Source: a virus
Length of the DNA stretch: 47,578 nt
Direction: 5' to 3' (one strand)
IMG/VR virus record: IMGVR_UViG_3300023179_000170
Span: 1 to 47,578 of that record
Shown here: piece by piece, positions 3,451 to 37,341 of the stretch
Layout: each line of letters opens with the position of its first letter
How positions within the stretch are numbered: the first letter of the stretch is position 1
Notes under the pieces: generated by a model
The model's database searches: none
Told to the model about the DNA's origin: nothing
Seen by the model: only the letters and a program-made list of their open reading frames with translations
Translations under genes and position numbers: made by a program

Positions 3451-3476
3451 CCCAAAGCAACGAAAGCACGCAAACG

Positions 3477-4061: not shown

Positions 4062-4339
4062 TGCCGGCGGCCCGCGCCGATGCGACCGCGATGGTGTTTG
4101 ATCGCCACGTCGCATCGATCTCGGAAGGCCTGTTGAGCGCGGACGAGGAGGGCGGCATCATCGCCGTCCTCCCACGCCTCTGGGCGCTCGCCGAAGAGAT
4201 GCGCGTCATCGACAAGCCGATTGCAGACTGGGAGCGGGAAGAGCTGCTGCGCTTCCTCACGCTTGCGATCCGCAGCGCCGTCCCGCTGCGCCACATCAAC
4301 TACCTGTCGCCGGACATGAACGATGCCATTCCCTTCTGA
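4061..4339 (+). CDS. Hypothetical small helical protein
   Basis: A 92-aa acidic, helix-rich protein starting at ATG 4061, overlapping the TAA of the previous gene. No family is recognised; there are no cysteines or membrane segments. Its 3' end overlaps the nuclease gene by 17 bases. The position between the ssDNA-binding candidate and the nuclease suggests an accessory replication or recombination role, which is only inferred from context. Confidence 0.6.
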   Translation: MPAARADATAMVFDRHVASISEGLLSADEEGGIIAVLPRLWALAEEMRVIDKPIADWEREELLRFLTLAIRSAVPLRHINYLSPDMNDAIPF

Positions 4340-5075
4340 AAGCGGATACGATCTCAACCGGAGCAGTACGCTGCGCGAAGCGTTCGCCGCATCGATTGCG
4401 GAACGGATCGACGCTGCGCCCGCCGAAGAGCGCGAGGCGCGCAATTATCTCGGCGCATCGCTCATCGGCGAGCCTTGCGCTCGCCGCATCCAATACGAGG
4501 TCCTCGCCGCGCCCGCCGAGCCGCACAGCGCCAGAACCCTGCGCATCTTTCGCCGCGGGCATCTGTTCGAGGCGGAGGTTGCAGGCTGGCTGCGCCAGGC
4601 GGGCTTCAAGGTGTCCACCCTGAATCCGTCCACGCTGCAGCCCTACGGCTTCTCCGTCGCCAAGGGGCGCTTTCGCGGGCACATCGACGGGATCATCTTT
4701 GACGGGCCCGCCGTCGACGGCCTGACTTACCCCTGCATCTGGGAGAACAAGGCGCTCGGCGAAAAGGGCTGGAAGGAACTGGTCAAGCACGGCGTCGCCA
4801 GGGCGCATCCGCAATACGCCGATCAGATCGCGCTCTATCAAACCTACATGGACAGCCAGGCGCCGGCGCTGCTGACGGCGGTCAACGCCAACACCATGGA
4901 GATCTGGGCCGAAGCCGTCGCCTTTGACCCCGCGCGCGCCCAGGCCGCGTCCGACCGCGCCATCCATATCCTTCGCGCCATCGACGCCGGAGACCTTCTG
5001 CCTCGCATCGGAGACGACCCAGAGCGCTTTCCGTGCGGCTGGTGCCGGTTCCGTGAACACTGCTGGAAGGGCTGA
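4323..5075 (+). CDS. PD-(D/E)XK nuclease with Fe-S cluster cysteines (Cas4/RecB-like)
   Basis: A 250-aa protein. The PD-(D/E)XK core is visible as GHIDGI (Asp122) followed by WENKALG (Glu141, Lys143). One N-terminal cysteine (Cys52 in EPCARRIQYE) and three C-terminal ones (Cys238, Cys241, Cys247 in CGWCRFREHC) have the spacing expected for the iron-sulphur cluster of Cas4/AddB-type nucleases. It would resect DNA ends for the Sak4-like annealing system. The start overlaps the preceding gene by 17 bases; the stop overlaps the primase-helicase start. Confidence 0.85.
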   Translation: MPFPSESGYDLNRSSTLREAFAASIAERIDAAPAEEREARNYLGASLIGEPCARRIQYEVLAAPAEPHSARTLRIFRRGHLFEAEVAGWLRQAGFKVSTLNPSTLQPYGFSVAKGRFRGHIDGIIFDGPAVDGLTYPCIWENKALGEKGWKELVKHGVARAHPQYADQIALYQTYMDSQAPALLTAVNANTMEIWAEAVAFDPARAQAASDRAIHILRAIDAGDLLPRIGDDPERFPCGWCRFREHCWKG

Positions 5076-18737: not shown

Positions 18738-19373
18738 ATGCCGACGCGCGAGAGCGTCCTGAATGACGCGCTGGCGCTTCTGGGCCAGCCGCGCATGAGC
18801 GGCCCGGCCGACACATCGACATGGGTGCGCCGTCTTGAGGGCGGGTTTGACGGCGTGGCGCAGCGGATGCTGGAAATCCACCCGTGGAACTTCGCCACGG
18901 TGCGGGAAGCGCTGGCTGCGGCGGCGGAGACCTCGCTGTCATCGTCCGGGCTGTCCCTGCAGGGCCGGTCCTACGCCTACACCAAGCCCGCCGTGGCGCG
19001 GATCGTGCTGGTCAACAGTTCCGGCGCCTGGTCCGACAATGGCGAGACGGGGCATTATGAAGATGAGGGCGGCTACATCTTCACCGACCTCTCGCCGTGC
19101 TGGCTGTTCTACATCAGCAAGAGTTGGCTGACCCGGATCGGGTCGTGGCCGGCGGTGTTTGCGTGGGCTGTGGCGACGGAACTGGCGTCCTCGCACGCCG
19201 AGGTGTCCACCAAGGACAGCGGCAAGCAGGAACAATTGATGATGCGCGCGCGGGAAGCGCTGCGGGCGGCGCGCTCATGGGATGCGTCGCAGCGGCCGTT
19301 CACGGCGCACCCGGAGGGCCGCTGGGTTCGGTCACGCCGCGGAATCGGGCGCAATCCGTACTGGGACGTCTGA
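18738..19373 (+). CDS. Tail tubular protein A (T7 gp11-like adaptor)
   Basis: A 211-aa protein with the T7 gp11 pattern: an N-terminal helix (ESVLNDALALLGQPRM), HPWNFATVREAL near residue 55, and a long C-terminal helix (QEQLMMRAREALRAARSWDA) ending in an Arg/Pro-rich tail with NPYWDV. The family forms a dodecameric ring under the portal. It is immediately followed by the gp12-like gene. Confidence 0.85.
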   Translation: MPTRESVLNDALALLGQPRMSGPADTSTWVRRLEGGFDGVAQRMLEIHPWNFATVREALAAAAETSLSSSGLSLQGRSYAYTKPAVARIVLVNSSGAWSDNGETGHYEDEGGYIFTDLSPCWLFYISKSWLTRIGSWPAVFAWAVATELASSHAEVSTKDSGKQEQLMMRAREALRAARSWDASQRPFTAHPEGRWVRSRRGIGRNPYWDV

Positions 19374-19374
19374 C

Positions 19375-22014: not shown

Positions 22015-22499
22015 TCGAACCGCTGACATGGCGCGACCTGCGGGAGTGGGGCGGCGCGGCCGACGCATGGAGCGACGGGCAGCTTGTGCGCCTTCCGATG
22101 ACTGGATTCGTGCGCCGCAGCGCCGGGGCCATCGAGGCCATTGGCGGCGTGATCTGGTTTGCGGGGCGACCGACCGGAAACTTCGCCATGACCGACGCCT
22201 TTCGGGCCAGTTCACGTTCCCGCTGGGTTCACCGCTACGCCGTGCAGGTGCTTGAGGCGGTCCAGCGGTTCGAGCCTGTGATCTACGCCACGGCGGACGA
22301 TTTTCCGGCCGCGGCGCAATGGCTTGAACGCCTTGGTTTCGTGCGATCGGGCGGAGAGTGGATACGTGTCATTCATGGCTGCGCTTCCGGCGATGGCGTT
22401 GAAGGCGGGGTCCTTCGTCATGGCGAACGGGATGAAGGCGGCGTCGCTGGCGTCTACGGGTCTTGGCGTTCTGGGCGCGCTGCGCCAGGGGTCCGCTGA
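22011..22499 (+). CDS. GNAT-fold acetyltransferase-like virion-region protein (gp13-like)
   Basis: A 162-aa protein from GTG 22011, with AGGAG upstream and a GTGA overlap. Residues about 1-118 look like the GNAT-like proteins found at the T7 gene 13 position: ITWRDLREW-like start, IEAIGGVIWFAGRPTGNFAM, then YATADDFPAAAQWLERLGF, which matches the GNAT C-terminal motif. The last ~40 residues (after WIRVIHG) are Gly-rich and are encoded in a 134-base overlap with the next gene, so they may be recent. Catalytic activity is not certain. Confidence 0.65.
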   Translation: MIEPLTWRDLREWGGAADAWSDGQLVRLPMTGFVRRSAGAIEAIGGVIWFAGRPTGNFAMTDAFRASSRSRWVHRYAVQVLEAVQRFEPVIYATADDFPAAAQWLERLGFVRSGGEWIRVIHGCASGDGVEGGVLRHGERDEGGVAGVYGSWRSGRAAPGVR

Positions 22500-22956
22500 G
22501 GCGGCGGCGGGCAACGCCACGGCAGCGTCGGCCTACCAGGCCGCGGGCCAGCAACGCGCGGTGTCGCAGCGGGAGGCGGAGCGCCAGCGCATCGACAATC
22601 GCCGGCTGATGTCACGCCAGCGCACGGTGATGGCGGCGAACGGATTTGACTCCACCGATGCGACCTCTCGCGCGATTGTGGGCGAGACGGCGAAGGAAGC
22701 CACCCTTCAGGAACTGCTGGAACTCGCCAAGGGCGAGGACGCCGCGCGGATGACGGAGTACAGTGGCCAGCTTGCGCAGTACGCCGGTCAGGCGGCGAAG
22801 GCCGCAAGCCGGCTGAGCGCGGGCGCGCGGCTCATTTCGGGCGCGCTGTCGTGGCGTGACCGCTTTGGCGACGGTGGCAAAGACAGCAAAGCGCTGATGG
22901 CGAAGGGCGGCGGGGGCTACGTCGCAACGGTCAGCCCGTCCAGGCATAGTCGCTGA
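22366..22956 (+). CDS. Internal virion protein (T7 gp14-like)
   Basis: A 196-aa protein. GTG 22366 has GGAGAG seven bases upstream; ATG 22375 would leave the site too far away. An N-terminal hydrophobic segment (residues 4-40) is followed by an Ala/Gln/Arg-rich helix (QQRAVSQREAERQRIDNRRL) and MAANGFDSTDATSRAIVGE. These are the usual features of the gp14-like core protein that enters the outer membrane during DNA ejection. The first 134 bases overlap the GNAT-like gene in another frame. Confidence 0.75.
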   Translation: MSFMAALPAMALKAGSFVMANGMKAASLASTGLGVLGALRQGSAEAAAGNATAASAYQAAGQQRAVSQREAERQRIDNRRLMSRQRTVMAANGFDSTDATSRAIVGETAKEATLQELLELAKGEDAARMTEYSGQLAQYAGQAAKAASRLSAGARLISGALSWRDRFGDGGKDSKALMAKGGGGYVATVSPSRHSR

Positions 22957-24449
22957 TGGCCCGCCTCCCGGGACCGGAGGATGTCCAGCGCACGCCGCTG
23001 GCGGTGACGCGCCGCATCGTGGAGGCGCCGGTCGATCAGAGCGGCGGGCAGATGGTGCGTGTTGCCGACGCCGCCAGCGAACTGCTGGGACGGGTCCGGG
23101 ACGCGCAGATCGAGGCGGAGGTGCGCGCCGCGGACTCGCGCTATGCGCTGGATCTCGACCGCGCCCGGCGCGAGCTGGAGGCCGACAACGACTACACGAC
23201 CTATGAGCAGCGCTTTCAGCAGAAGGCGCAGGAGCTGCGCAATACCTACGCGGAGCGCCTGTCATCGCCGGCGCATCGCCGGTTGTGGACGCAGCGCGCC
23301 GACGCGCAGGCGGCGCAGGGCACGGTGCAGGTCCGCGATCTCGCGCGCCGCAAGAGCATTGAAGGTGCGGTGTCAGGCGTCGTCCAGTTGGGGGCCGCGG
23401 CGCAGGAGATCATCGACGATGACGGCGCGCCGGAGAGCCTGCAGGTCAGCCAGCTTCAAAGCTACGCGCATATGGTCCGCTCCAACGTTTCACGTGGAAT
23501 CATCCCCGCCGACGACGGCGAGCGCATGGTCGCCACCATGGAGCAATACTACCGGACGAGGGCGGAGCAGCGCTCCCTTGTCGCCGGGGCGCAGCGTGCG
23601 GCTGATGCGGTGTTTGCGGACCCGCGGCTGGTCACGCTGGACGACAAACTGGGCTGGGTGCGCCAGAACGTGCCGGAGGGAAAGGCGCGGGCGGCGGCCG
23701 AGGATGAGGTCGCGCAGCGGTTCCAGCGGCAGCGTGTGGCGCGGGAAGAGAGCCAGGAGCAGGATCGCATCGCCTTCATGCGGGCCGAGAACGGCGACGG
23801 GACGCTGGACGGCGCGACGCGGGCGCGGATCGAACAGGAGCAGCCGGACTTCATCCAGCAGCGGCGCGAGTATCGCCGCTCGCTCTGGCGCCAGGGCGTG
23901 GCGGACGTGGAGACCGCGCGGCGCGAGGCGCAGCTTCAGTCGCAATCGGCGACGGACGGGCTGATCGCCGACGCGCTCAACGACCCCGCCAAGTTGCGCA
24001 GGCTCATGGAGGCGACGCCGGAGCAGTTGCAGCGTATCACGGCGCGGCTGGAGCCGGATGACGCCGTTCGGCTCGGGCAGTTCCGGGCAAGGGCGCTTGG
24101 CCGCGGCGGCGGCGACGACGCGCAGGCGCAATTGGTCGAGAAGGTGTTTTCCGACCTCTATAGCCGGGCGGAGCCGCAGGCTGTGCTGATGCTCGACGGC
24201 GAGTTCGGCGGAACGAAGGGCAAGGGTGAGGTCAACAAGGCCCAGTTGCGGCGCTATCTTCTTGGCAATGCGCGGGAGTTCGTGACGCGCTATGGCCGGG
24301 CGCCAAGCGAGCAGGAACTGACGACCATCGTCAATCGCGGGTTTGAGCAGCAGCGCACGCGCAACGAGTACGGTCAGTCCTTCCAGTACCGCTTCGGTCG
24401 CCCGCCGCCGTTGCCGCTCACCGCGGAAGAGCAGAAGCCGCCGCGATGA
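22956..24449 (+). CDS. Internal virion core protein (T7 gp15-like)
   Basis: A 497-aa highly helical, charged protein with no membrane segment. Long heptad-like stretches (DLDRARRELEADNDYTTYEQ, QSYAHMVRSNVSRGIIPADD) and the position between the gp14-like protein and a transglycosylase-bearing ejection protein match T7 gp15, a part of the inner core that forms the periplasmic ejection tube. Both ends overlap neighbours by TGATG/ATGA. Confidence 0.75.
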   Translation: MARLPGPEDVQRTPLAVTRRIVEAPVDQSGGQMVRVADAASELLGRVRDAQIEAEVRAADSRYALDLDRARRELEADNDYTTYEQRFQQKAQELRNTYAERLSSPAHRRLWTQRADAQAAQGTVQVRDLARRKSIEGAVSGVVQLGAAAQEIIDDDGAPESLQVSQLQSYAHMVRSNVSRGIIPADDGERMVATMEQYYRTRAEQRSLVAGAQRAADAVFADPRLVTLDDKLGWVRQNVPEGKARAAAEDEVAQRFQRQRVAREESQEQDRIAFMRAENGDGTLDGATRARIEQEQPDFIQQRREYRRSLWRQGVADVETARREAQLQSQSATDGLIADALNDPAKLRRLMEATPEQLQRITARLEPDDAVRLGQFRARALGRGGGDDAQAQLVEKVFSDLYSRAEPQAVLMLDGEFGGTKGKGEVNKAQLRRYLLGNAREFVTRYGRAPSEQELTTIVNRGFEQQRTRNEYGQSFQYRFGRPPPLPLTAEEQKPPR

Positions 24450-27400
24450 CGGAGCCCGTCACCAAGGACGATCTCTGGGGCGAGCTGGGCGCGTCGCCGT
24501 CCGACAAGGAGCGCGACGACCGCACGCTCGACCAGCAGGCGCGGGACAATTTCTGGCGCTCGCTGGATGAGGACGCGGACGCCCGCGCCCGGATGGCGCG
24601 CAATGCGCAGGCGCTCGGGACCGCGCCGGTGCTGGGCAAGGAGGCCGAAACCCGGCTGCAGCGGCTCGCCGACGCCAAGACGGCGCAGGAGACGATCAAC
24701 GCCAACAAGGGGCTGCAGGGGTGGTTCTCCAACCTGCACCGGGCGACGATCTCGCACGACGACGTCGAGGGGCTGGCGGGGATTGAGAAGGCCGCTGGGT
24801 TCCTGACGTTGGATGATCTGCGGCGGGGCTGGAACACGCTGACAAGGCGGCCGGACGCCGTGAACACTGCCGTGCGCGCCAACATGGGCAACGCCGGGGT
24901 GGGGCCGGACGCCGGGCGGGGTGCGGCGGCGCGCGTCGGGGCGATTGGCCGCCAGGTCAACAATTCGTGGACGGCGTCGCAGCTCGACGCTAAGGCGGCC
25001 CGGCTGGAGACTCGCAGGGCGGCGGCCGTGGTGGGCGCCGGAGACTGGACCGAGGCCGACCAGCGGGAGCTGGACGATGCGCGAACGGAAGCAGCCCTCC
25101 GAAGACTGGGTGGTCTTCAAAAGGTTCCTGATACTCTTGTTGGCGTTCTCAATTCTGGCGCCTCTGGTATCGTTTCTGGTGGCGTGGGGATGGTACGTGG
25201 CCCGGTAGACGCCGGGACCAACGTCGCCGAAAACGCCATCGCGGCGTCCAATCCGTTCTGGAAGTACGGGCGCTTTGCGCCTTACGCCGCCATGTCGGGG
25301 ATGCCGAAGGCGGAGGCCGTCGCTCCGCGCACAAGCCCCGTCATGGCTGGCCTGATGAAAATGGCCGGCGCGACGCCGGACCAATCGCTCGCGGCCAGCG
25401 CGCTTCTGTCGGCCGCGTCCGCTGACCCGCGTGTCGGGTTCCTTCGGGGGTCTGCGGAGTTTACGGCGGAGCAGGAAGCGGGCGGTGCTTTTCAGCAATA
25501 CCGGCAAGTCCAGACGCTCGACGGCCGCCCGCTCAATGAAAAGTACGCCGCGGAAGCGGCGATGCTCGTCGGCGCCATCAATGCTGGGCTTGAGTTTGGC
25601 ACCGGCGCGCTGATCGGCGGGGCATGGGGCTCGACGCGGGAACTGCGCGACAAGTTGCTGGCGCAGGGCGGACAGGCGGCGGTGCGGCGTTTTGCGCTGG
25701 GCGAGATCGTCAAGAAATACGGCTTGCGCGTGCTCGCCACCGGCGCCGGCGAAGGTACGGAAGAGGTGGTGCAGGCCGCCAGTACGCAGACATTTGAAGA
25801 GTTCGCCAAACTGAAAGACGGCGGCGAGTTCGCCCCGACGGACTGGAGCGCCTTCGCCGCATCGGCGCTGGAGCAGGGCGCCTATGGCTTTGCGGGCGGC
25901 CTCATGTTCGGCCTGCCGGTCATGGGCGTCGAACTGCGCGCCGACCTCCAGGCCCGCGACGCAGCGCTCGCCACCCGCGACCGGGTGCTGGCGCTGGCGG
26001 ATGCGGCGAAGAAGGCCAGGCTCACGACCCGCGACCCCGACGCCGCGGCGGCATTCATTGACGACCACGCCGCGCCGGGTGCGCCGCCGATCCTGATCGA
26101 CGTGCAGGGCATGATGACGCTGGCCCAGGAGGCGCGCCAGTCGCCGGAGGAGTTCGCGCAGTCGCTGGGCATCGCGCCAGAGCGCTACCGCGCCGCGGTG
26201 GAAGGCGACGGCGTCATCGAGGTGTCTGCCGGTCACTACGCGACGCGCATCGCGCTGACGGCCCACGGGCCGAAGCTCGCAGACCACATCAGCATGGACC
26301 GCAGCCAGCCGACCCCGGCGCAGGCGGAAGCCGCGGTGAAGGAGGCGGAAGCGCAGGTCGCCGCGGTGCAGAAGGCGGCGGAGGAAGAAAGCCGCACGCT
26401 GGTCGAGAAGGCCAAGGCCCACCCGGACTATGAGGTCTTGCGCAAGGAGGTCGAGGGCATCCTGACCGCTGGCGGCGCGGGCGACCGCGGCGCCGTGAAG
26501 ATGCAGGCCGAACTGATCGCCGCGAACATGGCGGCGAACGCCGACAAGCTGGACCCGGAGACCTATCCGATCGGGCGCGGCGACATGGTGAGCGTCGGCG
26601 GCTCTGCGGAGCGCCTGTCGGAGACGCCCGCGCCGGAGCCGCGCCGGGTGCGCGAGATCATCACCACCGCCGACGGCGAGCGCCAGGCGCTGCTTGAAGG
26701 CTCCTCCGTGCCGGTCCCGGTGGAGCAGTTGACGCGCGAGGGGCCGGTGTCGCCCATCGCCGTCTTCAGCCGCTTCAATCTGCGGGTGGAGTCCTACAAG
26801 GACCGCGAGGCTGCGGCGACGGCGGAGGCCGATTTCTTCGCGCGCATGGGCGCCGCTACGCCCGCAAGCGGCGTGACGATGAACCAGTTTGCGGGGGTCC
26901 GCGCCAAGACTGCAAACCGGGGCGCGCTGGCGGATGCGCAACAGCGGATCGCCAGCGGCGAGGACGCGGAAGTCGTGCGCCGGGAAACCGGGTGGTTTCA
27001 GGGCGACGACGGGTCGTGGAAGTTCGAGATCGACGACAGCAAGGCGCGCTTCACCAAGATGCCGAAGAAGCCGGGCTTTCACGGCGACGAGCTTGGTTTT
27101 GAAGGGCCGCTGGGCCGAATCCTGGACCACCCGGACCTGTTCCGCGCCTATCCGTCTCTCTACAAATTCCCCGTGCGGATCGAGATCACGCACGAACCAA
27201 TGATGTCGCACTTCAGTTCAACTGGGCTGAACGTCGAAGGCGAGACGCAGGAGGAGGCCATGGCCATCCTCATGCACGAAATCCAGCACTACATTCAGGA
27301 CGTCGAGAAATGGGAAGGCGGCGCGAACCCTGCCGCGGCGGAGCCGATGCGGGAGAACTGGTACAACGCCATCGTCAAGCTGATGGAAGACCTGCAGGCC

Positions 27401-29032
27401 GAGGGCCGCGGCCACAACATGATCCCGGAACTGGACTGGCTCCTGACGAAGATCGCGGAGTTTAATCCGGGCGACAACAACAGCTTCTTCGGCGGCCCCA
27501 GTGGATTTGCCGTGCGCGGTTACGAAACCACCATCGGCGAGACGGAGGCGCGGAATACGCAGGCTCGCCTGCGGATGACCAAGAAGCAGCGCAACGAGAC
27601 GCCGCCGGACGTCACGCGCGACGTGCCCCGCGGCGCTACCGTCACGCGCGAGTTCCCGTTCATCATGCGCGAAGGCGCGGAACAGGAACTGGAAGACGCG
27701 GTCAAGAAAGCATCCGCGGCCATTGGCTTGCCCTGGACAAAGAATGCGCAGGATCGCGGACTCACCGGCGAGCGCATTCTTGGAATGATTACGCAGGGCG
27801 GATTTGGGGGCGCGCGCGGTTACAACACGTTTGTGGCGCGGGATGCTGCGCAAAAACTAGCGCGTGGTACGCATGACTGGGGCGGACCGCTGGACGATTG
27901 GGATATCAAGCATCTGGAAAAGGACCTTCAAGATTCCACGCAGATCCTTCAAGTCCTCGACGCCGTAGAAGCGACCGGTGTCCAGAACCGCCTGTTTGCA
28001 GATGCATCGGCGTTCGGGCTTGTGTCGGACCTGGAAGTCGAGGGCTATCGCCGGCAGGTGGACGAGAAGGGCCGTCCGCTGAAGCGCGCCGACGACGGCA
28101 TGGAGCCGGCGTCGTATCGCATCGCCACATCCCCCGCCCCCACCCCACTCCAGATCGCCGAAGCCCTGCGCGAGGCGGCGCGGTGCGCGGCGGAGATGAG
28201 CGCGGCGGCTGCCGCGGGCGGCACGGCGGCGTTCATGGCGGGCAATGCGATTGCGGCGACGGCGGCGCTGCCGGCGGGGATCGCGGTGTCGGCAGCGACG
28301 GCGGCTCAGAACGAGGCCGAAGCGCAGCGGAGGGCGGAAGAGGAGCGGATTGCACGCGCGCGGGCGGAAGCCGAAGCCAGGGCGGCGGAAGAGAAGCGCA
28401 AGGCCACGCTCAAGCGCGACAATTTCGCGGGCTATCTGTCGGAACTGCCGTCCATCGATGCGATGTACCCGGAGGTCGCGAAAGAACTTGGCGTGCCGGA
28501 GCAGTACCTGCGCGATCTTGTCCAGCATGAGAGCGGCGGCGACTTTGCGGCGGATGCGCCGACGTCCAGTGCGTTCGGCGCCGGGCAGTTCATCAATGAT
28601 GCATGGAAGACCGAAACGGCGCTGATGGATGGTCGCTACGGGCCGGAGCCGTGGGCCGGGCAGGAGCAGCGCGACATGGATATGGAGCGGGCGCAGCCGA
28701 ACTGGATGCTGCTCGCCATTGCACAGCGGGCGCGCCGCGATGCGGTCGGGCTGCGCAACGCCATCGGGCGCACGCCGACGCAGGGCGAGGTCTATCTGGC
28801 GCACTTCCTCGGGCCGAAAGCGGCGGTGGATCTGATCGAGGCCGCCGACCGCGGGGTCAAGAACGCGGCGGCGCATTTCAAGGACGCCGCGAAGGCCAAC
28901 CGGAGCGTGTTCTACGAGGGCGGCGATCTGCGGCGCCCGCGCACGGCGGCGGGCGTGCGGGACAAGCAGACGGAAGGGTTCTCTTCCGAGAAATTCACCA
29001 TCGGCGCAACGCGCTTTGAGGATACGCCCTGA
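24446..29032 (+). CDS. Giant ejection protein with zincin motif and lytic transglycosylase (gp16-like)
   Basis: A 1528-aa protein in the T7 gp16 position. In order: an N-terminal helical region with a Gly-rich hydrophobic segment (about 215-260); a helical middle; a module starting MNQFAGVRAKTA (812) and containing ETGWFQGDDGSWKFEI; a zinc peptidase motif HEIQH (944-948); an Ala-rich membrane-like segment (about 1255-1290); a charged coiled coil; and a C-terminal SLT-type lytic transglycosylase with Glu1362 in QHESGG, then AFGAGQFI and YLAHFLG (1450-1456). In T7 the transglycosylase is N-terminal. It would be injected and open the cell wall. A 43-aa gene is nested in another frame at 25077-25208. 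Confidence 0.85.
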   Translation: MTEPVTKDDLWGELGASPSDKERDDRTLDQQARDNFWRSLDEDADARARMARNAQALGTAPVLGKEAETRLQRLADAKTAQETINANKGLQGWFSNLHRATISHDDVEGLAGIEKAAGFLTLDDLRRGWNTLTRRPDAVNTAVRANMGNAGVGPDAGRGAAARVGAIGRQVNNSWTASQLDAKAARLETRRAAAVVGAGDWTEADQRELDDARTEAALRRLGGLQKVPDTLVGVLNSGASGIVSGGVGMVRGPVDAGTNVAENAIAASNPFWKYGRFAPYAAMSGMPKAEAVAPRTSPVMAGLMKMAGATPDQSLAASALLSAASADPRVGFLRGSAEFTAEQEAGGAFQQYRQVQTLDGRPLNEKYAAEAAMLVGAINAGLEFGTGALIGGAWGSTRELRDKLLAQGGQAAVRRFALGEIVKKYGLRVLATGAGEGTEEVVQAASTQTFEEFAKLKDGGEFAPTDWSAFAASALEQGAYGFAGGLMFGLPVMGVELRADLQARDAALATRDRVLALADAAKKARLTTRDPDAAAAFIDDHAAPGAPPILIDVQGMMTLAQEARQSPEEFAQSLGIAPERYRAAVEGDGVIEVSAGHYATRIALTAHGPKLADHISMDRSQPTPAQAEAAVKEAEAQVAAVQKAAEEESRTLVEKAKAHPDYEVLRKEVEGILTAGGAGDRGAVKMQAELIAANMAANADKLDPETYPIGRGDMVSVGGSAERLSETPAPEPRRVREIITTADGERQALLEGSSVPVPVEQLTREGPVSPIAVFSRFNLRVESYKDREAAATAEADFFARMGAATPASGVTMNQFAGVRAKTANRGALADAQQRIASGEDAEVVRRETGWFQGDDGSWKFEIDDSKARFTKMPKKPGFHGDELGFEGPLGRILDHPDLFRAYPSLYKFPVRIEITHEPMMSHFSSTGLNVEGETQEEAMAILMHEIQHYIQDVEKWEGGANPAAAEPMRENWYNAIVKLMEDLQAEGRGHNMIPELDWLLTKIAEFNPGDNNSFFGGPSGFAVRGYETTIGETEARNTQARLRMTKKQRNETPPDVTRDVPRGATVTREFPFIMREGAEQELEDAVKKASAAIGLPWTKNAQDRGLTGERILGMITQGGFGGARGYNTFVARDAAQKLARGTHDWGGPLDDWDIKHLEKDLQDSTQILQVLDAVEATGVQNRLFADASAFGLVSDLEVEGYRRQVDEKGRPLKRADDGMEPASYRIATSPAPTPLQIAEALREAARCAAEMSAAAAAGGTAAFMAGNAIAATAALPAGIAVSAATAAQNEAEAQRRAEEERIARARAEAEARAAEEKRKATLKRDNFAGYLSELPSIDAMYPEVAKELGVPEQYLRDLVQHESGGDFAADAPTSSAFGAGQFINDAWKTETALMDGRYGPEPWAGQEQRDMDMERAQPNWMLLAIAQRARRDAVGLRNAIGRTPTQGEVYLAHFLGPKAAVDLIEAADRGVKNAAAHFKDAAKANRSVFYEGGDLRRPRTAAGVRDKQTEGFSSEKFTIGATRFEDTP
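25077..25208 (+). CDS. Nested 43-aa membrane protein in an alternative frame
   Basis: Inside the ejection gene, a second frame starts at ATG 25077 with GGGAG seven bases upstream. It encodes a charged N-terminus (MRERKQPSEDWVVFKR), a strong transmembrane helix (FLILLLAFSILAPLVSFLVA) and WGWYVAR. In this stretch the ejection-protein frame uses mostly T-ending codons, unlike the rest of the gene, while the nested frame keeps G/C at third positions. That codon pattern suggests the nested frame is the constrained one. It could be a holin- or antiholin-like peptide; function is unproven. Confidence 0.6.
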   Translation: MRERKQPSEDWVVFKRFLILLLAFSILAPLVSFLVAWGWYVAR

Positions 29033-32000
29033 TGCACCCGGAATGCCGCGCCCGCGTGTCGAAGGTTCTCGGCCGGGAGGTCACCGACGACATGGACGCG
29101 GCGCTGACGCAGCGCATCGAGGCGTCAATGCGCACGCTGTCGCGGCAGGACGTGGCGGCGTGGCGCGCGCTGCCGCAGACGGAGAAGTGGCGCCGGGCGG
29201 CGGACCATGCTGCGGCGCAGGTGGAGGCCGCGGCGGTGGGGCAGACCTTCAACCAGGATGGCGCCGTCTCTCGCGCACAGGCCGCAGGCTATCAGGGCGC
29301 CGACACCGGCGAGGCGGTGGAGTGGCTGCGCGCTAAGGCCAAGGGTCTCGACATGAGCACGGAAGCGCGCATGGCGAGGGCGAGAGAGCAGGGCTGGGAT
29401 ACGAGCAAGCCGCAGTATCACGGCACCCCATCCAGATCTTCGGAACACAACAACAAATATGTTCGCGCAGAAGGCGACGATAGGTACATCCCGCTATTTG
29501 AGGCTTTTGATTCAACAAAGGGAGCAGCCTCAGATAGCGGATGGTTAGGAAGTGGCGGCGTCTATGTTACAGAAGATCCTGAATATGCGTTCGAGTTCGG
29601 AGATAGAATTCTCCCGCTGTTCATACGGACATCCAAACCATTTGATGTACTGGACTCTAACACCACCAGTTACGAGTCATTGTTCTTGCTGCGAAAGCAA
29701 GTGCAAGAACTCGGGATGCAATTGCCAGAAAAGTGGCGTCTTGATCTAACGGAGCCTCCCGCAAAGAAGACATTCAAGTCGTATGACGGTAGGCAAATAA
29801 CCACGCACTACACAGTGCGAGAGGCGCCGAACTCGGAAGACCCGAATACAAGATGGGCCGTGGTCTCTGGGTCAAGGCCCTATGCAGAAAGTCGTTCTGG
29901 AATTGTTGAGGCGAGCGGGCCGACGCGTGAACAAGCAATTGGGCTATTCAACGACAATCAACGCAGCGGTGGAAAGCCTTTCGGCTTCTCCAGCCGCTTG
30001 ATCGGAGACTACGGACCGAAGCGTTTTGTGGAAGACCTTAAGGCACGCGGATTTGATTCCGTGCGCGCAGTGGATTCTCAGAATGGCAGGGTTTCAGAAA
30101 CACTTGTCTTCGACCCCCGCAACATCCGCTCCATCCACGCCGCCTTCGATCCTGACTTCAAGGACAGCGCGAACCTGCTCGCCCAGGGCGAACCCGCCGT
30201 CGGCGTCCGCGGCGACTTCACGATCTGGCGCGCTGACGCCCGGTGGCGCGTCAATGAGCTGGAGCGCCAGACGCGCATCCGGCTCTACGCCGCGCGCGAC
30301 ATGTCCACGATGCTCCACGAAACGGGGCACCTGTTCCTTGAGGTCATGCGCACGCTGGCGCCGTCGAGCCCGCAGATCGCGGCGCAACTGGAGGACGTGC
30401 GCCAGTGGGCGGGCCTGAAGGACGGCGAAGACTTTGAGGAGCGCCACCACGAACTGTTCGCGCGGACGTTTGAGGCCTACCTGATGGAGGGGAAGTCGCC
30501 GTCGCTGCGCCTCAGGAAGGCGTTCGAGGCGTTCAAGGCGTGGCTGACGGCGATCTATCGCGCCGTCACCGGCCGGCTCGTGACGCGCGACGGGATCGAC
30601 TATGGCGCGACGCGACTCTCACCGGAAATCCGCGCCGTGTTCGACCGGATGGTGGCGACGGACGCCGAGATCGCACAGGCCCGCGCGCTGCAGGGCATGG
30701 AGCCGCTGACGCAGGCCCAACTCGGGCTGACCGATGAGGCTTATGCGAAATATCTGGCGTCCTTCGAGCGGGCGCGCGTCGCGGCCGAGAACGACCTGCG
30801 CGCCGAAACGATCCGCCAGGTCATGCGCAAAAAGCGGGCGGAATGGAAGCGCCGCGAGGCGCAGCATCGCCGCGTCGTGACGCTGAACGTGAACGGCCGG
30901 CGCGAGTACCGGGCCGAAGACCTGTTCACCGATGGCCGCTGGCGCGATGGCGTCGGCGTCGGGCAGGCGCTGCCGCCGGACGAGGCGATGCAGGACCGGG
31001 ACGAGGCGGAGGCTGCGGGGGCGCAGGCGGAGCGGGAGATCATCGACGGCCGCAGCTACGACCAGTTCGCCGGACCGCGCGCCCGCACGGCGGACCTGTC
31101 GAAACTGAAGCAGGCGCAGGATCGCGTCGCGGCAGGGGAAGACCCCGAACAGGTGCGCAAGGACACCGGCTGGTTCAAGGACAGCGCGGGCCAGTGGCAG
31201 TTCGAGATCAGCACGGCGGATGTGCGCGTGCGGCTGACCCCGGAAGCGGCTGCCGCGGCCAATGCGTCGCGACGGCTAAACGCGATGGAGGTCCGGCACG
31301 CGCTGATGGTCGGCGACATGGATGCCTTCATGGACCCGCTGTCGCCACTGGCGCAGCACTATGCGCTGCTACCCGACGTACTGGATGCCAAGGATCTGAT
31401 CGAGGCGTACCCAGACCTTGCCAGCCTCCGGGTCGTGTTCGTGAACATGCCCGCCGGGTTCAACGGGGCCGCCCTGCCAGAGGACTACCAGACGGGGCGT
31501 CCCGGTTTCATCCTCCTGGATAGCCATCTGTCCATCGAGAAGGCGAGATCGACCCTCATTCACGAGCTTCAGCATGTGATCCAGGCCTCCGAGGAGTGGA
31601 TGGTCGGCGGAATGCCGGAGCAGGCGTCCGCCTATATCGACCTCGCCGATCAGGACACCGTCGATGCGGTGCTGTTGCGGCTGAAGGCGGCGGGGCTGCC
31701 GGCGACATCGAACAACGTATATCGCGTCTTCACCGGGGAGGATCAAGCCTTCGAGTCCGAGGCGCGCCGCAACATGACGCCGGAAGAACTGCAGGCGACG
31801 CCGCCCGTTAACGCCTATGCGCCGTCCCTGCCGACGCGGCCGAACTCCCGCGCCGGGCTGGAGGACTTCAAGGACCGGGTGCTGAAACGGTTCGGGATCG
31901 TGCTGTCCGTGGGGCCGTCGCTGTCGCGGGAGCCCCTGTGGTTCTCCGCGCTGGAGCGCGCGGTGGAGGGCTCGCAGACCAAGAAGGCGAGCGCGGCGCA

Positions 32001-35000
32001 ATGGTGGGCGACGCTCTCCAAGACGCCGGGGGTCAAGAAGGAAGAACTGGAGTGGACCGGCCTCAAGGACTGGCTGGATGGGCAGGAGGCGGAGCAGGCG
32101 CGCCCCGGCCGCAACAGTTCGGACAAGGGCGTCAGCCGCGACGACATTCTTGCTTTCGTCCGTGCCAACGGCGTGCGCGTCGAGGAGACGGTGCTGGGGG
32201 ATATGTCTCTCCAGAATCGCGAGCAATTGGATGAACTGCAACGCGAGCTATTGCCGCTCGTGGAGGAGCAAGATCGTCTTCGCGCTGAACTGGATACATT
32301 GGCAAATTTCGCCCGCAATGCCGACGATCAGAGGCTGAAGACGGCCGCCGCTGAAAGGCAACAACAAAATCGGGCGCGTTTGCGGGTAATTGGACCACAA
32401 ATTCTTGATCTGATGGAGCGCCAGGATTTCCTGCGTGGAGACAACGTCCGCACCAAATGGTCCAGCTACACCCTCCCCGGCGGCGAGAACTATCGCGAGC
32501 TGCTGCTGAGGTTGCCGGGTGGCACTCGCGACGATGTTCGCCCGTCGCCAGAAGTTGTGGCGAATTATCAGGAGGAGTGGGACGGGCTTGTCGTTCAAGT
32601 TCGCGAAGCCCGCGCAAAAGGGCAGCGCGCTTACGAAACGGAAGTCCAAGATAAAATGGATGAACTTCACGCTCGTATGGTGCGTGAAACTATTGAGCAG
32701 AACCCAAGGCTGGTTCGCGACCCCTACACCTCCTCCCACTGGGACGAGCCGAACGTCCTCGCGCACGTCCGTTTTAAGGAGCGCACCGACGCTGACGGCG
32801 CGCGCGTGCTGGCGATCGAGGAGGTCCAGAGCGACTGGCACCAGGCCGGGCGGGAGAAGGGGTATAAGGCCGGCGACGCGGAGCAGCGACTTCGCGATGC
32901 TGAAGAAGCGCAACGCGAAGCTTACAGGGCGATGGACGTCGCCAGTAACGCAGGGCGAAAGTATCTTGCGGAGGTTGGCGACATAGATTTTCAGGATCGG
33001 CAGGCTGCGGCTTCGCATGGGGCTGTGCTTGGCTGGCTCAGGCTTCGGAAGGGCGATGCTCAAGCAGCCGAGCTGGCGGCGCGGGTCTATGAAGCGATGG
33101 GCGCTGCGGATAGGGCCGCAGAGGAGACGCGCGGCGCGCGGGCGGCGGCCACCAAAGGCGTCCCCGACGCTCCGTTCAAGAACAACGCCTGGGCCGCGCT
33201 CGCGCTGAAGCGCATGGTTCGCTGGGCGGCCGAGAACGGTTTTGACAAGATCGCGTGGATTCCGGGGCAGGTGGCAGTGGAGCGGTTCGGAATCGAGAAG
33301 CAGATCGATAGCCTTGAACTGTGGAAGGATCGCGACGGCAGGGAAAAGCTCTACGCCTATCGCGGCGACCGCATGGTGCAAGAAATCACGATCACGGAGC
33401 AGCAGCCGCTGGAAGCGGTGATTGGCAAGGAACTGGCGGAGAAGTTGCGGAACGGACAGCGCAACACAACGGCCGACAGAGCTGAGGGGGGTGAGCATCG
33501 CTCGCTTTCCGGCGTTGACCTCAAGATCGGCGGCGACGGGATGCGCGCGTTCTACGACCGCATCCTGCCGAACATCGCCAACGACCTCGGGAAGAAGTAC
33601 GGGGCGAAGGTGGGGGAGGCGAAAATCGGCATGGGAGCGCCGAGCAAAGCCGACTTGGACGCACGATGGGCTCGCATCGCAGCGGGCGAAGATGGCGTGC
33701 CGCACCCCGGCGAAGCGCAACAAAAAATGCACTCCCTCCCCATCACGCCCGCGCTCAAGGAGGCCGCGCTGGGCGGCTTCCCAATGTTCCAGAACGACCC
33801 CTCCATTACGCCGGACCCGAAGCCCGACTGGTGGAAGAAGATGAAGCTGGACCGGCGCCAGATCGAGGAGACCTACGGGCCGGAGGTCGCGGCGAAGCTG
33901 GAGGGCATGTTCGCCACGGCGGAAGAGGAGGCTGCGACCGCCGCCGCAGAGATCGAGAAAGCCAACGCCGACCTGAAGCAGGCCAAGCGCCTCTGGGTCT
34001 GGATCAGGGAGAAGGGCGGGATTCGCGCCGATGACGCCGGGGCCATTGTGGATGGCGACAAGCGCTTTCCCATGCTGGTCCGCAAGAACGGGATGGGCCT
34101 CGACGACCTCGCCCGCGCCGCCGTGGAAGAGGGCTTTGCGCCGATGCGCAAGGACGCAGACGGCTACATCATCCCGCTTGATCCTGAAGAATTGCTGGAC
34201 ATGCTGCGCCGGGATGTCGGCGGCGATCCGCAGTATCGCGTCACGAACGACGAGGCCCGCGAAACTCTGGCGCGCTATCAGGCGTCCGGGATCGACACGA
34301 GCCTCACAGGCAAGGCGCTGCGTGAACAGGTTCGGGAGACGATGCTGGAACAGGCACGGCTTGGCGTCGATCCCGACGAGATCGCGCCGCTCTTGGGCTT
34401 CTCCTCCGGCGACGAGATGATCCAGGCGCTGGCGGCGCGGCGCCCGCGCGCCGACGTCATCAAGGAAGAGACCGACGCCGCGATGCGCGACGAGTTCGGC
34501 GACATGATGGAGGACGGCTCCCTCATGGACGAGGCCAAGCTGCGCGCACACGCCGTCGCACAGGAAAAGGCGCTGGAGATCGAACTGGAAGCCATCCGGC
34601 GCGCGACCGGCGGGCGGGCAAGGCCCATGGCCGCCGCGGCGAAGCAGGCGGCGGAGCGCCAGTTGAAGGCCATGACGGTGGGCCAGGTGCTGAACCCGGA
34701 CCAGTTCCTTGCCGCCGAACGCCGCTTCGGGATGCAGGCGCAGAAGGCGCTGGCGCGGGGCGACACGGCTGCGGCGCTGGAGGCCAAGCACCGCCAGCTT
34801 GTGTCGTGGCATCTCTATCGCGGCGCCCGCGCCGCCGCCGACAAGGTGCAGAAAGCGGTCAAGCGCTGGTCGTCGCTGTCGGACAGCACGACGGTGCGCA
34901 ACGGCATCGCAGAGCCGGAGCGCGACATGATCGACATGATCCTCGAGCGGATCGACCTGAAGCCGCGCTCGCGGGCCGAAGAACGCCGCAGTGCGGCGGA

Positions 35001-37341
35001 ATGGTTCATGTCCGTCGAGGCGCGCGGACTCTCGGGGATGCGGGGCGTCGATCCCGAAACGCTGGCGCAGATCGGGCCGCGGCCGATGCGCTCGCTGACG
35101 GTTGCGGAGTTCGATGAGGTCGCGGAAGTGATCCGCAACATCGCGTTCCTTGGGCGCAATGTGGGGAAGATGCTGGCCGCGGAGCGCGCGCGCGAGGTCG
35201 AAGAGGTCAAGCGGGGCCTGCTGGATCGCGCTGAAGCGGAATGGAAGGGCGCGCTCGATCCGAAGTCCCGACCGTCGGATTCGCTGCTGGCGCGGGCGCG
35301 GCGCAACGTCGATGCGTTCCACGGCGCCAACCTCAAGATCGACTATCTCATGCGCCTGATGGACGGGCTGAAGGACAATGGCCCTTGGGCGCGGATCTTC
35401 TCGCATCCGGCGCAGGAGGCCGCCGACCGTTTGCATCAGCGCCAGATTGCAACCATGCAGCAGTTCGCCGCGCTTCTGGAGCGCCAAGGCGTCACCCGCA
35501 AGGAACTCGGGCAGATGCTGACGCGCAACATCTGGATTCCCGAAATTGGGGAAAACCTGACGCGCCACCAGATCGTCTCCGTCGCGCTCAACATGGGCAA
35601 TGAGTACAACCGCGAGGGCGTCAAGGCGGGCGAGGGCTGGGACGATGCGCAGCTTGCGGCTGTGCTCGCGAAGATGCGCAAGCAGGACTGGGATCTTGTG
35701 CAGGCGCTGTGGGACCATATCGGCCAGTGGAAGGAGGAATCCTTCGCGCTGGATGAAAAGACCCGCGGCGTGCGCCCGCGGGAGGTCATCGCTGCACCGG
35801 TGCAGACGCCGTTCGGGACCTATCGCGGCGGGTACTGGCCGGTCGCGTTCGATCCGCTGCGCTCCGATGCGGCCGCGAAGCGCGAGGCGCGGGACGCGGT
35901 CAATGCGGAGCTCGGCGGCGGCTATCGTACACCCGCCACCGCGCGGGGTCGCCTCGAGGCGCGGCAGGGCACCGGCGGCCAACCGTTCCGGCTTGACTGG
36001 CTCGGTGTGCTGGACAAGCACACCCGCGAGACGCTGACCGACCTGACGCACCGCGAACTGGTCATCGACCTGCGTCGCCTCAAGGCCGACAGCCGCATCC
36101 GGCTTGCGATCTCCAACGTGGCCGGCGATGGCGCGGTGCGCGCGCTGGACGACTGGGTCAACCGCCTGACGCGCAAGGCGCCGGTGACGGCCTATGGCGA
36201 TCTCGGCGGCATTGCCGCCTATCTGCGCCGCACGGGCACGCAGTCGCAAATGGGCTTTAAGCTGTCGGTGGGTCTGCTCAACGCGCTGGGCGCGCTGCAG
36301 GCGATTCCGCGCAATGGGTTCGCGGCGCAGTTGAAGCAGTCTGGCATCTCGTTCGGCCGCGACTTCCCGCTGATGGTGGCGTCTCAGATCGGATCGCTGT
36401 TCGGCGGCGACGGGACGATGCCCAAGCGCGTCGCCTTCGTGCGCGAGAAGTCCGCCATGATGAATGCGCGGATGGGGCAGTTTGACCGGGAAATCGCCAA
36501 CGACACTGGCGTCCTGGAGGTCAAGGCGACGGTGCTTGGCCGGCGCGATTACTCGCTCATGTCCAAGGACTGGGAGGATGCGGCGCACTATTTCACCGGG
36601 CTCATGGACGCCGCGGTCTCCGTGCCGACATGGCTTGCGGCCTATGAAAATGCCATGGCCGGGAAGGTCGGCGGCATCGAACTGGCTGATGAGGCGGCGG
36701 CGATCCGGCACGCCGATCAGGTGGTGCGCACAACGCAGGGCTCCGGCGCCACGCAGGACCTGTCGGCGTTGCTCGCGACGAATAACGAGTTCCAGCGCCT
36801 CTTCACCATGTTCATGAGCTGGGCGAACGGGTTCTACAACCAGTTGTTCGCGGAACAATTTCCCGGCGTGATGCGCGGCAAGATCAGTCCCGTGCGGTTT
36901 GCGGTCAACATGATCGCGATCTGGCTGCTGCCGGCGTTCCTGTCGGCGTGGTTCTATGGGCTGGGCGACGATGGTGAGGACGAGGACAAGAAGGCGCGGC
37001 AGATCGTGACGGAAGTGCTGCTCTATCCGGCGCAGTCGATCCCGTTCGTGCGCGACGCCCTGTCCTCGGTGTTCGAAGACTACCGCCCGCAGACGCCGCT
37101 GGCGACCGCGCTGGATCGCGCCGGGCGCCTCTCGGGCGCAGTTGAGGGCGGCGACGGCGAGAAGATCGCCAAGCAAAGCTACATGCTGTTCGGCTCGCTC
37201 TTTGGCGCGCCGACGCAGTTCTGGGTCACCGGGGACTATCTCTATGACGTGACGGTGGGCGACGAGGATCTGCAGGACTGGACCGACCCGGAAACCGCGG
37301 GCGACGCCTTCAGCCAGGCGTTCGTGAGAGACACGCGTTAG
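29032..37341 (+). CDS. Giant polyvalent protein: ADP-ribosyltransferase-like, zincins and C-terminal membrane region
   Basis: A 2769-aa protein, translationally coupled to the ejection gene (TGATG). It resembles the large polyvalent proteins that phages deliver with their DNA. In order: residues about 127-385, an ART-PolyVal-like domain (YHGTPS at 129; SGGVYVTEDPEYAFEFGD near 173; FDPRNIRSIHAAFDPDFKD at 360); a zincin HETGH (429-433) with a downstream ELFARTFEAYLMEG; a FAGPRARTA/DTGWFKD module (about 676-728); a second zincin HELQH (844-848); WTGLKDWL; a conserved EEVQSDWH block (1264-1270); long helical regions; NMGNEYNREG (about 2187) and GGYWPV; and a membrane segment (about 2624-2645). 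It probably blocks host defences and processes proteins on entry. Domain names are from motif recognition only. Confidence 0.75.
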   Translation: MHPECRARVSKVLGREVTDDMDAALTQRIEASMRTLSRQDVAAWRALPQTEKWRRAADHAAAQVEAAAVGQTFNQDGAVSRAQAAGYQGADTGEAVEWLRAKAKGLDMSTEARMARAREQGWDTSKPQYHGTPSRSSEHNNKYVRAEGDDRYIPLFEAFDSTKGAASDSGWLGSGGVYVTEDPEYAFEFGDRILPLFIRTSKPFDVLDSNTTSYESLFLLRKQVQELGMQLPEKWRLDLTEPPAKKTFKSYDGRQITTHYTVREAPNSEDPNTRWAVVSGSRPYAESRSGIVEASGPTREQAIGLFNDNQRSGGKPFGFSSRLIGDYGPKRFVEDLKARGFDSVRAVDSQNGRVSETLVFDPRNIRSIHAAFDPDFKDSANLLAQGEPAVGVRGDFTIWRADARWRVNELERQTRIRLYAARDMSTMLHETGHLFLEVMRTLAPSSPQIAAQLEDVRQWAGLKDGEDFEERHHELFARTFEAYLMEGKSPSLRLRKAFEAFKAWLTAIYRAVTGRLVTRDGIDYGATRLSPEIRAVFDRMVATDAEIAQARALQGMEPLTQAQLGLTDEAYAKYLASFERARVAAENDLRAETIRQVMRKKRAEWKRREAQHRRVVTLNVNGRREYRAEDLFTDGRWRDGVGVGQALPPDEAMQDRDEAEAAGAQAEREIIDGRSYDQFAGPRARTADLSKLKQAQDRVAAGEDPEQVRKDTGWFKDSAGQWQFEISTADVRVRLTPEAAAAANASRRLNAMEVRHALMVGDMDAFMDPLSPLAQHYALLPDVLDAKDLIEAYPDLASLRVVFVNMPAGFNGAALPEDYQTGRPGFILLDSHLSIEKARSTLIHELQHVIQASEEWMVGGMPEQASAYIDLADQDTVDAVLLRLKAAGLPATSNNVYRVFTGEDQAFESEARRNMTPEELQATPPVNAYAPSLPTRPNSRAGLEDFKDRVLKRFGIVLSVGPSLSREPLWFSALERAVEGSQTKKASAAQWWATLSKTPGVKKEELEWTGLKDWLDGQEAEQARPGRNSSDKGVSRDDILAFVRANGVRVEETVLGDMSLQNREQLDELQRELLPLVEEQDRLRAELDTLANFARNADDQRLKTAAAERQQQNRARLRVIGPQILDLMERQDFLRGDNVRTKWSSYTLPGGENYRELLLRLPGGTRDDVRPSPEVVANYQEEWDGLVVQVREARAKGQRAYETEVQDKMDELHARMVRETIEQNPRLVRDPYTSSHWDEPNVLAHVRFKERTDADGARVLAIEEVQSDWHQAGREKGYKAGDAEQRLRDAEEAQREAYRAMDVASNAGRKYLAEVGDIDFQDRQAAASHGAVLGWLRLRKGDAQAAELAARVYEAMGAADRAAEETRGARAAATKGVPDAPFKNNAWAALALKRMVRWAAENGFDKIAWIPGQVAVERFGIEKQIDSLELWKDRDGREKLYAYRGDRMVQEITITEQQPLEAVIGKELAEKLRNGQRNTTADRAEGGEHRSLSGVDLKIGGDGMRAFYDRILPNIANDLGKKYGAKVGEAKIGMGAPSKADLDARWARIAAGEDGVPHPGEAQQKMHSLPITPALKEAALGGFPMFQNDPSITPDPKPDWWKKMKLDRRQIEETYGPEVAAKLEGMFATAEEEAATAAAEIEKANADLKQAKRLWVWIREKGGIRADDAGAIVDGDKRFPMLVRKNGMGLDDLARAAVEEGFAPMRKDADGYIIPLDPEELLDMLRRDVGGDPQYRVTNDEARETLARYQASGIDTSLTGKALREQVRETMLEQARLGVDPDEIAPLLGFSSGDEMIQALAARRPRADVIKEETDAAMRDEFGDMMEDGSLMDEAKLRAHAVAQEKALEIELEAIRRATGGRARPMAAAAKQAAERQLKAMTVGQVLNPDQFLAAERRFGMQAQKALARGDTAAALEAKHRQLVSWHLYRGARAAADKVQKAVKRWSSLSDSTTVRNGIAEPERDMIDMILERIDLKPRSRAEERRSAAEWFMSVEARGLSGMRGVDPETLAQIGPRPMRSLTVAEFDEVAEVIRNIAFLGRNVGKMLAAERAREVEEVKRGLLDRAEAEWKGALDPKSRPSDSLLARARRNVDAFHGANLKIDYLMRLMDGLKDNGPWARIFSHPAQEAADRLHQRQIATMQQFAALLERQGVTRKELGQMLTRNIWIPEIGENLTRHQIVSVALNMGNEYNREGVKAGEGWDDAQLAAVLAKMRKQDWDLVQALWDHIGQWKEESFALDEKTRGVRPREVIAAPVQTPFGTYRGGYWPVAFDPLRSDAAAKREARDAVNAELGGGYRTPATARGRLEARQGTGGQPFRLDWLGVLDKHTRETLTDLTHRELVIDLRRLKADSRIRLAISNVAGDGAVRALDDWVNRLTRKAPVTAYGDLGGIAAYLRRTGTQSQMGFKLSVGLLNALGALQAIPRNGFAAQLKQSGISFGRDFPLMVASQIGSLFGGDGTMPKRVAFVREKSAMMNARMGQFDREIANDTGVLEVKATVLGRRDYSLMSKDWEDAAHYFTGLMDAAVSVPTWLAAYENAMAGKVGGIELADEAAAIRHADQVVRTTQGSGATQDLSALLATNNEFQRLFTMFMSWANGFYNQLFAEQFPGVMRGKISPVRFAVNMIAIWLLPAFLSAWFYGLGDDGEDEDKKARQIVTEVLLYPAQSIPFVRDALSSVFEDYRPQTPLATALDRAGRLSGAVEGGDGEKIAKQSYMLFGSLFGAPTQFWVTGDYLYDVTVGDEDLQDWTDPETAGDAFSQAFVRDTR
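29430..30100. other. AT-richer segment encoding the ADP-ribosyltransferase-like domain
   Basis: Base composition drops visibly here (for example 26 G/C in the 60 bases 29641-29700, against roughly two thirds elsewhere). Codons with A or T at the third position become common. The edges match the ART-like domain, so the domain was probably exchanged or acquired as a unit. Confidence 0.65.

Follow-up and report, generated by a model that had tools for sequence, protein, structure and literature searches.

What does a late phage gene of 2769 codons encode when its product brings several unrelated enzymatic domains together in one chain? The question is raised by a complete IMG/VR virus record of 47,578 bases (IMGVR_UViG_3300023179_000170; hereafter the window), in which the gene under study, gene B, occupies positions 29032-37341 directly downstream of gene A (24446-29032); these genes and the window features described below lie on the plus strand unless stated otherwise. 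An earlier note, made from the sequence alone, had drawn attention to gene B as a polyvalent protein with an ADP-ribosyltransferase (ART)-like domain, two zincin motifs, a conserved EEVQSDWH block, long helical regions and a C-terminal membrane segment. The polyvalent label is borne out by an ART, two zincins and a predicted GNAT-fold domain, that is, by at least two disparate activities in gene B. Our reading, to which we assign a probability of roughly 0.6, is that a short-tailed, BPP-1-like phage makes a giant polyvalent protein of the ejection type in two pieces, with gene B specifying its C-terminal part and the gene just upstream its N-terminal part, and that the two chains would act by the mechanism proposed below.

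Genes A and B in the Bbp10 family

The 2769-codon open reading frame (ORF) is present where the earlier note had placed it, beginning with ATG and ending with TGA in the ORF listing. GC contents of 0.69, 0.46 and 0.81 at codon positions 1, 2 and 3, together with homology to many phage proteins over much of its length at 23-46% identity, establish gene B as protein-coding. An antisense frame of 1642 codons (32248-37176, minus strand) covers most of the gene and is probably a by-product of the high third-position GC.

Two regions of the gene B product are similar to Bbp10 of Bordetella phage BPP-1 and to about 80 phage records, at 23-32% identity: residues ~411-640 and residues ~1700-2750. Residues 1764-2752 match phrog_9880 with an E-value of 1.5e-222. 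The C-terminal backbone (residues 1774-2753; 34351-37290) is conserved across Bbp10-family proteins and includes the one strongly hydrophobic stretch, at residues ~2618-2645 (36883-36966; best 19-residue Kyte-Doolittle mean 1.81), which is the single predicted membrane segment of gene B and the segment the earlier note had in mind. A profile-guided scan from an alignment of five C-terminal regions recovered 284 relatives in viral contigs; single-sequence scans of viral contigs with this region, or with the LPD23-zincin segment described below, returned no confirmed relative.

The N-terminal part of the same family is found in gene A (1528 aa). Profiles of three N-terminal Bbp10 segments (39-167, 243-444 and 449-585), built from relatives only and run on the 438 ORFs of the window, matched gene A alone, in colinear order, with E-values of 2e-7, 6e-14 and 4e-12. 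The latter two define an N-core at residues ~345-702 of gene A (25478-26551), homologous to Bbp10 243-585; profiles were needed for its detection, a single-sequence search with the N-core in three relatives having given no match. Gene A also carries LPD22 (residues 38-117; 24557-24796; E 2.3e-9), a domain with which the undivided giant ORF of relatives L068 and L035 begins, followed by an LPD23-zincin module and a C-terminal lytic transglycosylase-like region (residues ~1337-1510; 28454-28975; phrog_4067, E 1.1e-23). The N-core and the C-terminal region reside in one ORF in 86 of 103 relatives, and 14 others begin at a contig end; an N-core in a separate ORF was seen in only three (the window, L055 and L161). 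Because the N-core profiles match only gene A and the chain is unsplit in these 86 relatives, the sequence comparison argues that a single ancestral chain has been divided between genes A and B, which together comprise ~4,300 residues here. The earlier note had described the upstream gene as an ejection protein coupled to gene B; the coupling stands, but gene A is not a separate protein in origin, as it carries the N-terminal half of the same one.

Could the division instead have arisen by a sequencing or assembly frameshift within a single ORF? The frame of gene B is open upstream only to 29020, so that the frames of the two genes are open together over only a few bases (29020-29032), which is compatible with a single indel, and the prevalence of unsplit relatives points the same way. 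Against this, the gene B start overlaps the gene A stop by one base in a TGATG that is preceded at good spacing by GAGGA (29018-29034 for the whole element), the GAGGA at 29018-29022 is likely the ribosome-binding site of gene B, and the two genes are probably translated in a coupled way. The first 115 residues of gene B (29032-29376) also match the virion structural protein family phrog_684 (E 6e-11), with residue 1 aligned to phrog_684 position 1 as expected of a true N-terminus, and L055 and L161 are split too. The alignment from residue 1 and the form of the junction speak against a frameshift, and we regard such an error as improbable.

Other arrangements of the same parts were observed among the relatives. 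In L055 and L161 another large ORF lies between the N-core gene and the C-terminal gene. The 3744-aa ORF of L047 (3126-14357), by comparison, has the N-core, a transglycosylase-like region, an LPD23-zincin, a GNAT-like domain, the zincin and the C-terminal backbone in one chain, and thus resembles much of genes A and B fused. Upstream of the giant gene of L035, a gene at 3376-5550 encodes a Peptidase_M23 domain where BPP-1 and Carin1 have an SLT transglycosylase, so that cell-wall enzymes have been swapped at the same place.

A constant backbone with changeable enzymes

The two HExxH motifs that had been reported for gene B are indeed the only two it holds, HETGH at residues 429-433 and HELQH at 844-848, and both belong to conserved modules. 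The first lies in a Bbp10-type zincin, here termed ZN1 (residues 416-593; 30277-30810), together with E474 and E481, downstream glutamates that fit the ligand position of a zincin metallopeptidase; among relatives sharing a mean identity of 39%, the HExxH is intact in all 92 with data and both glutamates are retained in 96/96. Region 700-1000 of Bbp10 has been assigned to a phage zincin family, for which it served as a seed (PMC3650047). The second motif belongs to ZN2 (residues ~740-935; 31249-31836), which has a weak Peptidase_M78 match and is linked to an LPD23 domain immediately upstream (residues 678-727; 31063-31212; E 2.3e-17). Gene A contains a comparable unit, an LPD23 (residues 814-869) and a zincin with the motif HEIQH (residues 944-948), the pair spanning 26885-27289 (E 5e-22 in the Pfam scan), which is a paralogue of the LPD23-ZN2 unit of gene B (28% identity over 282 columns, E 3e-25). 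With ZN1 and ZN2, the gene pair thereby has three zincin-type sites.

The ART domain spans residues 124-390 (29401-30201). It was missed by a Pfam search with the full-length protein and found with the isolated segment 124-391, which matches ART-PolyVal (PF18760) with an E-value of 3.3e-6 and 28.3 bits, slightly below the Pfam curated cut-off of 31.2; all 20 members of its alignment match the same family, the best at 5e-26, and the call made by the earlier note is thereby upheld. The Tyr129 and His130 that it had singled out are correctly placed within YHGT at residues 129-132. His130 is invariant in the alignment, Tyr178 (in GVY) falls within the strand-2 motif G-x-[YF]-x-T, and the acidic strand-5 position is probably occupied by Glu356 (SETLVF), where relatives have D or E at or beside the column and the published family has Asp. 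The nearest PDB entries to the family profile are the H-Y-E mono-ADP-ribosyltransferases (E ~0.004), which fits the HYD2 clade of ARTs described among polyvalent proteins (PMC5512222).

Comparison of relatives separates what is constant from what is exchanged. The constant backbone has three components, the N-core, ZN1 and the C-terminal region in which the membrane segment lies, and the enzymes are changeable; the changeable set here comprises the ART, the LPD23-zincin and the GNAT-fold domain in gene B and the LPD23-zincin and transglycosylase in gene A. Measured in 100 ORFs that contain both, the distance from ZN1 to the C-terminal region has a median of 92 residues, and effector domains are normally upstream of ZN1; in nearly all relatives ZN1 marks the boundary of the changeable enzymes, the cargo, with the backbone. 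The window protein departs in part from this rule, with 1185 residues between ZN1 and the C-terminal region; the only other long insertions there are those of L152 (1224 residues) and L068 (557 residues; L085 is the same record). Relative to L068, its closest relative, the window has ~955 extra residues (640-1594) that correspond to the LPD23-ZN2-GNAT block, whereas the GNAT-like domain of L068 is located before ZN1 and the linker at residues 1595-1714 of gene B (33814-34173) directly follows ZN1 there. One relative, L152, has an arrangement of the same kind, with modules placed between ZN1 and the backbone.

The ART and GNAT-like modules change place between relatives, and 51 of 100 relatives have neither by these profiles. 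At third codon positions the ART has a GC content of 0.59 and the GNAT-like domain one of 0.75, against 0.86-0.88 for the backbone, which is consistent with later gain of the two modules, although the contrast is modest (68 of 2768 circular shifts are as extreme). The same domain profiles run against reversed ORFs gave zero matches, and the domain calls in genes A and B are thus not chance matches.

Two further observations concern this arrangement. In L152 (3176-13150), the insertion of >1100 residues between the Bbp10 zincin and the C-terminal region consists of an LPD23-zincin and an ART. A cleavage-like "[LF]xQ" motif, suggested by LLAQ after the ART and PMFQ after the GNAT-like domain, was considered as a shared linker and rejected: the Q is present in 13 of the 41 sequences with a letter at that position, and the motifs show no clear enrichment over shuffles.

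A predicted GNAT fold in the EEVQSDWH domain

EEVQSDWH, the conserved block of the earlier note, at residues 1263-1270, went unrecognized there as part of a domain of ~620 residues (~966-1588; 31927-33795). The domain has relatives in 62 viral contigs and at 84 places in bacterial and archaeal genomes, and it is present in only 5 of 50,697 phage records. In a search of Pfam and NCBIfam, none of 49 members had a meaningful family match, GNAT models included, and a PDB profile search with the domain gave no match.

A confident AlphaFold2 model of the gene B domain (predicted local distance difference test score, pLDDT, of 86.8) reveals two coiled-coil insertions, residues 1060-1139 (32209-32448) and, between beta4 and alpha3, residues 1283-1374 (32878-33153). 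The long helical regions of the earlier note correspond partly to these coiled coils and partly to the Bbp10-family backbone. In a fold search with the 643-residue model, coiled-coil rows swamped the output, and the non-coiled-coil rows were the GNAT-fold neighbours Rv1916, the ICL2 C-terminal domain, AtaT and TacT2. A distant, short homologue with fewer insertions, L032 (411 aa; pLDDT 85, predicted template modelling score 0.81), was used instead, and all of its 50 best VIA rows are GNAT-fold proteins, with Z-scores of 7.3-9.6 over 116-149 aligned residues. Foldseek ranked SSAT and NatD first for the L032 model, with weak E-values (5.6e-3 at best), and the assignment is made because the structural matches are uniform. 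In a viral model library, the L032 model matches 27 uncharacterised or "polyvalent" phage proteins at E <= 0.001, with N-acetyltransferases soon after. On these models, the EEVQSDWH domain is predicted to have a GNAT fold.

Whether the predicted fold binds a cofactor in the usual way is less certain. The Q/R-x-x-G-x-G/A pyrophosphate loop between beta4 (residues 1258-1266) and alpha3 was not seen; where it is expected, the domain has QSDWHQxGRKxGY, then the coiled-coil insertion and then a conserved VPxAPF (1377-1382) before alpha3. Because this classical loop is absent, binding of coenzyme A (CoA) is uncertain, and the domain is here termed GNAT-fold rather than a member of the GNAT family proper. 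GNATs often have a general-acid tyrosine in alpha4. In the modelled domain E1263 and E1264 lie on beta4 and Y1508, conserved at 94%, in alpha4, correspondences that are matched by order of elements only. Across 49 sequences Q1266, E1156 and P1381 are invariant and E1264, S1267, D1268 and Y1508 are retained at 94-98%, the pattern of an active site.

These features also bear on the possibility that the protein is mainly a structural ejection protein, a channel or tape, whose ART and GNAT-like modules have decayed or have no catalytic role and act as spacers or binding parts. The unseen cofactor loop and the large coiled-coil insertions would suit such a role, as would the fact that it is the backbone segments that are constant while about half of the relatives dispense with both modules. 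Decayed or spacer modules would not be expected, though, to retain the H, Y and acidic positions of the ART across a diverse set or the near-invariant residues of the GNAT-like domain just described, and we consider a purely structural role unlikely.

Stand-alone EEVQSDWH genes of ~550 aa were observed in about 20 gammaproteobacterial genomes (L214, L215, L217, L220, L222, L223, L225, L228-L230, L233-L240 and L245). Ten of ten tested were devoid of a Pfam match, and at three loci inspected the neighbours look like ordinary chromosomal genes; these genes apparently are domesticated copies. It is tempting to speculate that the EEVQSDWH domain represents an acyltransferase family not known before, which holds its cofactor in a way of its own, is injected by many phages as part of their ejection protein, often adjacent to an ART, is freed by a zincin in the host cytoplasm and has been domesticated by bacteria, but we advance this broader idea only tentatively.

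How the two chains might act

The proposal that genes A and B specify an ejection apparatus draws on their surroundings. Gene B sits among late virion genes, and the series before gene A consists of a 910-aa tail (nozzle) protein homologous to bbp13 (19282-22014), a 210-aa internal virion protein (22324-22956; phrog_418, E 3.6e-17) and a 497-aa gene (22956-24449) in the position of bbp11/gp15-like proteins, for which a relative was detectable in L152 only (its upstream 538-aa gene is the only one resembling it). The order matches that of BPP-1: tail protein, internal virion protein, transglycosylase gene, giant gene, fibre. By gene order and analogy, packaging and injection of both products, which the earlier note had also suggested, are plausible. 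Both chains would then most likely travel inside the head and leave it before the DNA or together with it, helping the DNA to cross the envelope; the transglycosylase would probably open the peptidoglycan and the membrane segment would share in envelope crossing. ZN1 would probably cut the chain at the border of enzymes and backbone. The enzymes so freed would reach the cytoplasm of the host, and there the ART and GNAT-like domain would modify host molecules.

Support by analogy for packaging of a Bbp10-family protein comes from phage JC1, in which gp69 (4515 aa) was detected by 51 unique peptides in purified virions together with its 510-aa and 196-aa neighbours (PMC9144972). JC1 gp69 and Bcep22 gp75, DarB-like proteins of Burkholderia podoviruses, are giant virion proteins encoded after virion proteins of ~200 and ~500 aa, and gp69 likewise has two HExxH sites (PMC9144972). 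Several results nevertheless weigh against the ejection-type polyvalent reading. In addition to the sub-threshold ART score, the modest compositional contrast, the weak Foldseek values and the unseen pyrophosphate loop, the ZN1 profile found no match in the PDB, JC1 gp69 matched neither the Bbp10-family nor the module profiles and has no detectable homology to the window backbone or modules, and the literature searched contained no virion proteomics of Bbp10 or any Bbp10-family protein. In the text consulted, the only proteins identified by the cryo-EM study of BPP-1 are Bbp16 and Bbp17.

The JC1/Bcep22 protein, annotated DarB-like in the same genomic position, also brings to mind an anti-restriction or anti-defence shield for incoming DNA of the P1 DarB/DdrB type. 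The earlier note had raised such shielding, and polyvalent proteins do include domains of this kind (PMC5512222). Yet a Pfam scan detected no DarA, DarB, ParB, methylase, helicase or ArdC in gene A or B, and the family profiles fail to reach gp69 itself. The idea is left with no specific support, and we give it little credence. Still less probable, to the point of being scarcely credible, is a lysis function. Public records give members of the family (e.g. L082 and L084) such names as "lysin", "lysis protein" or "crystallin beta/gamma motif", and Bbp10 relatives carry the annotation "crystallin beta/gamma motif lysin" (PMC9239159), but a Pfam search with gene B returned neither a lysin nor a crystallin family, and BPP-1 and phage AF have separate endolysin or Rz genes.

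Among the closest known systems is Bbp10 itself (2052 aa, phrog_9880), with which the window proteins share the N-core, the zincin, the C-terminal backbone and the gene order next to an internal virion protein and a transglycosylase gene. Bbp10 differs in being a single ORF, in that the profiles used here detect neither an ART nor an LPD23 nor a GNAT-like module in it, and in the ~110 residues between zincin and C-terminal region compared with 1185 in the window. To our knowledge, the ejection proteins of T7 have no ART, zincin or GNAT-like module. The T7 gp14-gp15-gp16 set does share the gene position and order and a transglycosylase (PMC8954989); a sequence match to it was not seen, no search aimed at one having been made. 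The polyvalent proteins of Iyer et al. (2017, PMC5512222) have in common with the window several unrelated enzymatic domains in one chain, zincins as a hub, an ART of the same Pfam family, LPD22/LPD23 and a late gene position; the window differs in its split over two genes and in its EEVQSDWH domain, for which no family was found in either Pfam or NCBIfam. That study lists two GNAT families of the RimI type, one of them frequently next to an ART (PMC5512222), but since 0 of 49 members match a Pfam GNAT model, it seems unlikely from sequence that the EEVQSDWH domain is one of them. With the GNAT-fold toxins AtaT, TacT and KacT and the C-terminal domain of M. tuberculosis Rv1916/ICL2, the domain shares its predicted fold (VIA Z 8.8-9.6 over 127-149 aligned residues), whereas identity is ~8-12%, coiled-coil insertions are present and the classical cofactor loop is not seen.

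The polyvalent class and the Bbp10 family were already known, and the window protein is a well-supported member of both, in an uncommon form that is split as well as rearranged. New are the predicted GNAT-fold assignment for a common unnamed domain, the recognition that the chain is divided over two genes, and the finding that the zincin as a rule separates cargo from backbone; no description of the EEVQSDWH domain or of this arrangement appeared in anything searched. Giants of the Bbp10 family can take up one-sixth of the genome of a phage, and most carry the label "hypothetical" or the misleading one of "lysin". The natural split suggests that the N-terminal and C-terminal parts can function as separate chains, and the GNAT-fold assignment provides a biochemical hypothesis, acyl transfer, for the EEVQSDWH domain. 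With a parts list of constant backbone, fixed zincin and changeable enzymes in hand, what these phages inject besides DNA becomes a testable question.

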